A DNA stretch of 7,442 nt. Origin: Nitrospinota bacterium (GTDB lineage Bacteria; Tectomicrobia; Entotheonellia; J063). Each line of letters starts with the position of its first letter. Within the stretch, counting starts at the first letter, position 1. The notes beneath the pieces were generated by a model. It made no database searches. It was given only the letters and a program-made list of their open reading frames with translations, and was not told the DNA's origin. Where the stretch lies: the NCBI GenBank assembly GCA_003696125.1, contig RFHZ01000843.1, positions 1-7,442 of the forward strand, in the 5' to 3' direction. Position numbers and translations under genes: made by a program. Shown here in pieces: positions 521 through 6,137 of the stretch.

Positions 521-994
521 TTATTCCCGGATCGTATGAATATCGATGGCAACAAGGAGACGATCCCTGGGCAGGGAGCTGAGATCCAGACTCTGGCGTT
601 TTAGCATGGCCTGTACCCTCTTCACCTCGCTGGGATCCAGCTCAAAGGCGGTACCATCCCGAAAATCGATGCCCAGCCATATCCCTCCCACCCAGAGGGT
701 GCCCATGCCTAAAGGGACATAACCGGCACTCCACCCCTTGCCACGACGGTTGATCATCACCAGCACCGGCGGATATCCCTCCTGTGCAAAGCGGAGCACC
801 AGGGAGGAGGATTGAGATGGCAGGAGAAGGGCGACCGGGGTGTCGGCCAGGGGAACAGGCTGCACCGTTATCCCGGGAGGGAGAGTAGAGATGGCGAGAT
901 TCTGCCGGCCAGGATTCCCTCCACAGGCCCAAACTCCTGTGACCTGCCCTCCTGTGCCTAACAGGATGAGGAGGACTATCGTGGATCGCAGCAT
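521..994 (-). CDS. Small exported protein of unknown function, possible lipoprotein
   Basis: 157 residues. The open frame extends further upstream, but the start chosen at 994 gives MLRSTIVLLILLGTGGQVTGVWA followed directly by CGG. That is a charged tip, a hydrophobic core and a cleavage site. The start has an upstream AGAGAAGGTG-type ribosome site and lies outside the preceding gene. Cleavage before the Cys at 24 would leave CGGNPGRQN as the mature end. The VWAC sequence is close to a lipobox but has Trp at -2, so a lipoprotein is possible and simple Sec cleavage equally so. The mature part has a proline-rich stretch (LPPGITVQPVPLADTP), then beta-rich segments (LVLRFAQEG, VLVMINRRG, VGGIWLGIDF), then a helical tail containing SEVKRVQAMLKRQ. 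I recognise no family. It starts 43 bp after the livF stop on the same strand with no terminator between, so the two are probably co-transcribed. A link to transport is inference only. Confidence 0.7.
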   Translation of the reverse strand: MLRSTIVLLILLGTGGQVTGVWACGGNPGRQNLAISTLPPGITVQPVPLADTPVALLLPSQSSSLVLRFAQEGYPPVLVMINRRGKGWSAGYVPLGMGTLWVGGIWLGIDFRDGTAFELDPSEVKRVQAMLKRQSLDLSSLPRDRLLVAIDIHTIRE

Positions 995-5661: not shown

Positions 5662-5720
5662 CTCTGGGAGAGAATCATCTCCTGCCCAACAAGAGAAAGG
5701 TGAGGATATCCTCTCCAGAG
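5662..5720. repeat. Inverted repeat with inner 12-bp palindrome
   Basis: CTCTGGGAGAG (5662-5672) pairs with CTCTCCAGAG (5711-5720) with one bulge, enclosing 38 nt. A perfect palindrome GAGGATATCCTC (5702-5713) overlaps the right arm. It lies just after the cysteine-repeat gene and just upstream of the -35 of the DUF255 promoter. With no T-run after it in the minus direction, it is not a standard terminator. It could be a transcript 3' stem or a binding site. Confidence 0.35.
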
Positions 5721-5737: not shown

Positions 5738-6067
5738 CTATTGTGTTCGCCGGCAGATGCTGGCGTTATTGGGCCCGATCCCGATTCCCCAGGGACACTC
5801 GATCCGGTGCGTTACCCCTACGGTGGCAAAGCCGAGCGGACAGGGACCACACACGGTGATGTTGCGATTGACCGGGAGACGCCGACAGATGCTGGCGTTG
5901 TAGTGATCGATCCCGATGCCAGAGGGACAGTCCAGGCTGTGGGTGACCCCGACCTGGGCAAAACCAGAGGGACAGGAGCCACACACGGTCAGGATGCTTT
6001 GCCATCCAGTCACAGGGGTGAAGGAGGTAAGTAAAGTCAAAGTGATGAGAAGGAGAACAGAGCGCAT
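5738..6067 (-). CDS. Small exported eight-cysteine protein, two 44-residue repeats
   Basis: 109 residues from the ATG at 6067. A GTG at 6070 is directly adjacent, but AAGGAG sits 3 nt from the GTG and 6 nt from the ATG, which favours the ATG. Residues 1-21 (MRSVLLLITLTLLTSFTPVTG) look like a Sec signal peptide. The rest is two tandem repeats of 44 residues (22-65 and 66-109), with 27 of 38 core positions identical. Each follows TVCGxCPxGFAxVGVTH, then a CPxGIGI block ending NASICRR, with cysteines spaced C-x2-C-x14-C-x13-C (C29, C32, C47, C61 and C73, C76, C91, C105). In an exported protein these would most simply form disulfides. Each repeat has two CPxG half-motifs, hinting at an older internal duplication. 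I do not recognise the family. Metal binding or a structural or adhesive role are guesses. The gene is divergent from the creatininase gene and has a promoter-like sequence. Confidence 0.75.
   Translation of the reverse strand: MRSVLLLITLTLLTSFTPVTGWQSILTVCGSCPSGFAQVGVTHSLDCPSGIGIDHYNASICRRLPVNRNITVCGPCPLGFATVGVTHRIECPWGIGIGPNNASICRRTQ
5741..6004 (-). repeat. Two tandem 132-bp coding repeats
   Basis: Units 5741-5872 and 5873-6004 encode the two 44-residue repeats of the cysteine-rich protein. The shared word CAGATGCTGGCG occurs at 5754 and 5886, exactly 132 bp apart. Over 110 aligned positions from 5748 and 5880, 83 match (about 75%) with no gaps. The best-kept parts are the cysteine and CPxG codons, which is what an in-frame duplication followed by selection on the protein would leave. 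Confidence 0.85.
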
Positions 6068-6137
6068 CACACTCTCCTTAAGCTCAAAACCGAAGAGGCT
6101 CTTTTATCCTCTGCCAGATAGAGTTTCTTTTCCTATT

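Follow-up and report, generated by a model that had tools for sequence, protein, structure and literature searches.

A predicted exported, apparently lineage-restricted protein of two cysteine-rich repeats with signs of purifying selection between its copies

We examined whether a small cysteine-rich open reading frame, described in an earlier note as an exported repeat protein under selection, is a genuine gene, and what its product may do. The window (the whole stretch of DNA that was analysed) is a 7,442-base contig; the assembly is fragmented into 990 contigs, with a completeness of 95 and a contamination of 8. A neighbouring gene encodes a DUF255/DsbH-type protein with 59-61% identity to its own class and 47% or less outside it. 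Since this protein is closest to its own class, there is no obvious sign of the contig being a contaminant. The other neighbours are ordinary (cupin, LivF-type ABC ATPase, class-III aminotransferase, and creatininase), and an Rfam scan of the window found nothing. An operon with the DsbH-type gene was rejected as functional evidence: the two genes are separated by a 168 bp gap that contains a promoter-like TTGCCA-18-TATACT, and visual inspection showed no signal peptide on the DsbH-type protein. The window also carries a second small exported orphan of 157 aa (521-994, minus strand), which has a signal-peptide-like start (MLRSTIVLLILLGTGGQVTGVWACGG...), no match in Pfam, and weak matches in NCBIfam (E 0.12) and PHROGs (E 0.028). 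The features of the cysteine-rich gene are listed in Table 1.

Table 1. Coordinates in the window of the cysteine-rich gene and its parts.
Feature	Position	Strand	Remarks
Exported cysteine-rich protein ORF (predicted export)	5738..6067	minus	ATG to TAG stop, 109 aa
Shine-Dalgarno AAGGAGA	6073..6079	minus	5 nt 5' of ATG; read from sequence
Signal-peptide-like N-terminus, residues 1-21	6005..6067	minus	MRSVLLLITLTLLTSFTPVTG; hydropathy; -3/-1 rule by eye
Unit 1 core, residues 26-63	5879..5992	minus	LTVCGSCPSGFAQVGVTHSLDCPSGIGIDHYNASICRR
Linker between units	5861..5878	minus	LPVNRN
Unit 2 core, residues 70-107	5747..5860	minus	ITVCGPCPLGFATVGVTHRIECPWGIGIGPNNASICRR

The translated product (109 residues) reads MRSVLLLITLTLLTSFTPVTGWQSILTVCGSCPSGFAQVGVTHSLDCPSGIGIDHYNASICRRLPVNRNITVCGPCPLGFATVGVTHRIECPWGIGIGPNNASICRRTQ. 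Its cysteines are located at residues 29, 32, 47, and 61 in unit 1 and at residues 73, 76, 91, and 105 in unit 2. The spacing is 2,14,13 in both units (C-x2-C-x14-C-x13-C), 11 residues separate the last cysteine of unit 1 from the first of unit 2, and the unit cores are identical at 27 of 38 residues, in agreement with the earlier description of two repeats with identical cysteine spacing. Self-comparison at the repeat offset gave 27 identities vs. 16 or fewer in 20,000 shuffles; at the DNA level, the repeat extends over 118 nt with 75% identity and a spacing of 132 nt. The repeat length of 44 residues given earlier is correct as the period, but unit 2 has only 40 residues because the protein ends there. 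Every C and CPxG position is kept in both units, while the intervening loops differ (SLD/RIE, DHY/GPN), and a conserved His in VTH (GVTH) lies ahead of the third cysteine in each unit. What had been called strict conservation of the Cys, Gly, and CPxG positions is thus real within the protein, but it compares two copies in one gene, not homologues. Three N-x-S/T sequons are also present (N57, N69, and N101; window 5765-5899), two of which belong to the conserved NASIC of each unit. Just downstream of the gene there is a near-palindrome, GGTGAGGATATCCTCTCC, at window 5699-5716.

The N-terminus reaches a hydropathy of 2.38 (12-residue window), and from this segment the protein is predicted to be Sec-exported, with probable signal peptidase cleavage near G21/W22 (-3/-1 rule applied by eye). 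The mature part would be ∼9.3 kDa with a pI of 8.5, six Arg, no Lys, and eight Cys; all of the cysteines, an even number, fall within it.

The cysteine-rich ORF is a genuine gene. When the six frames over the ORF were scored for synonymous codon usage against four neighbouring genes as the reference, only the annotated frame scored above zero. The 38-codon cores of the two units differ at 30 nucleotides, distributed over codon positions 1, 2, and 3 as 7, 5, and 18, which corresponds to a dN of 0.21, a dS of 0.82, and a dN/dS of ∼0.26 (NG86). These differences change 11 amino acids, vs. 17.9 expected by random placement; none of 5,000 random placements gave as few amino-acid changes, and 43% of the placements created a stop. 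Given the third-position excess and the small number of amino-acid changes between the copies, purifying selection has acted on the protein since the unit was duplicated, and the earlier note had supposed such selection; conservation between species is a separate matter. It could be argued that the ORF is spurious or decaying and the repeat a DNA duplication in noncoding sequence, since homologues were not found in the collections searched, GC2 is unlike that of the larger neighbours (0.56 vs. 0.38-0.44), and the codon score is lower (0.13 vs. 0.22-0.28), but a Shine-Dalgarno sequence with an ATG, the single positive frame, and the substitution pattern between the units render this argument hardly credible. 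Homologues were not found in the collections searched, yet purifying selection is seen; an orphan of this kind can be recognised as a real gene by selection between its own internal copies.

The search for relatives was carried out at several ranges. No homologue was detected in the same genome beyond the one copy, or by sequence search in four relatives of the class, and no counterpart was seen beside the DsbH-type genes of these four relatives. In one of them (L019, G003 contig 3, 5964-8011) the DsbH-type gene appears as two adjacent matches in different frames (residues 5-166 and 167-682), i.e., a frameshift or an assembly error. Among up to ∼1,200 genomes (relatives, the class, the phylum, and the phyla of four other search centres) no convincing homologue was found, and none was found in viral, phage, and plasmid collections. 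A scan of 84,980 species genomes for exact eight-residue peptides, which rules out close relatives only, gave no relative either. Matches in three genomes were discarded: the one in G032 is weak (31% identity) with an internal stop, and those in G749 and G821 are chance matches in a frame different from the merR/HspR-like and ClpB-like genes there. A literature search found nothing relevant. We concluded that the protein is a real and apparently lineage-restricted orphan relative to the collections searched, in which its phylum is represented by five genomes.

AlphaFold2 runs on the single sequence gave models of low confidence (pLDDT 51 with the signal peptide and 56 without it; pTM ∼0.35). 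Both runs nevertheless agree on three strands per unit, and the positions of these strands correspond. Foldseek searches with these models detected no significant fold match. We tentatively favor an exported tandem of two three-stranded, disulfide-braced units with a binding or structural role outside the cytoplasm; the export and the strands are predicted, and we infer the disulfides and the role. The small basic protein would leave the cytoplasm through Sec and lose its signal peptide to signal peptidase, and the mature chain would fold into two tandem compact beta units, in which TVCG, GFAxVGVT, and ASICRR form the strands. Within a unit, the four cysteines would form two disulfides that brace the loops with the CPxG turns. 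No catalytic-looking residues were seen in the protein, so that the protein would most likely bind a partner or serve as a structural component (in the periplasm, on the surface, or in the medium). The coding frame, the selection, the hydrophobic N-terminus, and the translation start signals favor this explanation, as do the even number and equal spacing of the eight mature-part cysteines, the recurrence of the three strands in both predictions, and the retention of the C and CPxG positions between differing loops; the low confidence of the models counts against it.

VKOR was not found in the same genome or in the class. This result makes disulfide formation less settled, and metal binding is the foremost alternative: each unit might bind a metal ion (zinc or copper) by four Cys or by Cys and the conserved His, and the product would be an exported metal-binding or buffering protein. 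The C-x2-C pair and the VTH ahead of the third cysteine in both units also fit a metal site, and the orphan status of the protein leaves no covariation on cysteine pairing. However, exported proteins in an oxidising environment seldom hold a metal by thiols alone, no metal-binding Pfam model was matched, and the window is devoid of metal transport or resistance genes. We consider metal binding possible, but unlikely.

A less probable alternative is a small peptide, basic, cysteine-rich, and beta-sheeted, that would be secreted as an antimicrobial or a weapon of competition, with a defensin-like action on other cells. The mature composition is suggestive (basic pI, Arg without Lys, eight Cys), and alpha-defensins were the only weak single-unit fold matches that covered the whole target. 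These matches are at noise level, though (E values of ∼7 or worse, and a Z score of 2.7 for 32 residues of a low-confidence model), the protein is only mildly basic, its cysteine number and spacing are unlike those of defensins, and there is no adjoining immunity, processing, or export gene.

Searches of NCBIfam and PDB sequences with the cysteine-rich protein gave nothing meaningful. In PHROGs, a single family without an assigned function was matched weakly (E 0.012), and this match did not recur with two shuffled controls. The single lead in Pfam was PF23091 (TNFR_ELAPOR1_6th) at 18.4 bits (E 0.002), below the cut-off of 33.2 bits. As a control, nine copies were prepared in which the mature part was shuffled except for the C, P, and G residues. 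Eight of the nine matched PF23091; four of these exceeded 18.4 bits, the highest reaching 26.2, and a fifth scored nearly the same as the native protein (18.1). Since shuffles that keep C, P, and G score as well, the match reflects the composition of the C-x2-CPxG skeleton, not homology, and a TNF-receptor relationship was rejected. That the units are degenerate TNF-receptor/ephrin-receptor-like modules (ELAPOR1, GCC2/GCC3), of eukaryotic origin or drawn from an ancient shared pool, is therefore very unlikely despite the E value and the similar C-x2-CPxG-x11-C order. Within Pfam, NCBIfam, PHROGs, and PDB, the earlier statement that the protein matches no known domain holds, and no confident match to a described domain was obtained.

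The 44-residue unit may be an undescribed small domain family of a sparsely sampled phylum, with its own fold and its own disulfide or metal pattern. This is a candidate drawn from one gene of one genome, and we regard it as doubtful, though not far-fetched. Of the earlier interpretation, purifying selection and, within the libraries searched, the lack of a known domain were supported; the new domain is unproven, as no homologue was found, the models are of low confidence, and nr, AlphaFold DB, and metagenomes were outside the search that defines the orphan status. If the unit is truly a new domain, a phylum represented by five genomes would contribute a small scaffold that is rich in disulfides or binds metal.

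Three kinds of known proteins invite comparison. Alpha-defensins are small, basic, secreted, three-stranded, and disulfide-rich, as the protein is predicted to be, the likeness coming from weak model matches at noise level, but they are eukaryotic and contain six cysteines in defensin spacing, compared to four per unit here. The modules of PF23091 and PF07699 (Ephrin_rec_like) share C-x2-C-P-x-G followed by ∼11 residues to the next Cys, and they are extracellular and in tandem like the proposed protein; TNF-receptor-like and ephrin-receptor-like modules have six cysteines each and three disulfides, whereas the units here have four and are without the second C-x2-C pair. Small exported cysteine-rich orphans of bacteria have a signal peptide, low mass, an even cysteine number, and a restricted distribution. 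The protein, with its predicted signal peptide, resembles them in these respects and is probably one of many such lineage-restricted orphans, a familiar kind, from which it differs by its clear internal duplication and its unlisted motif.
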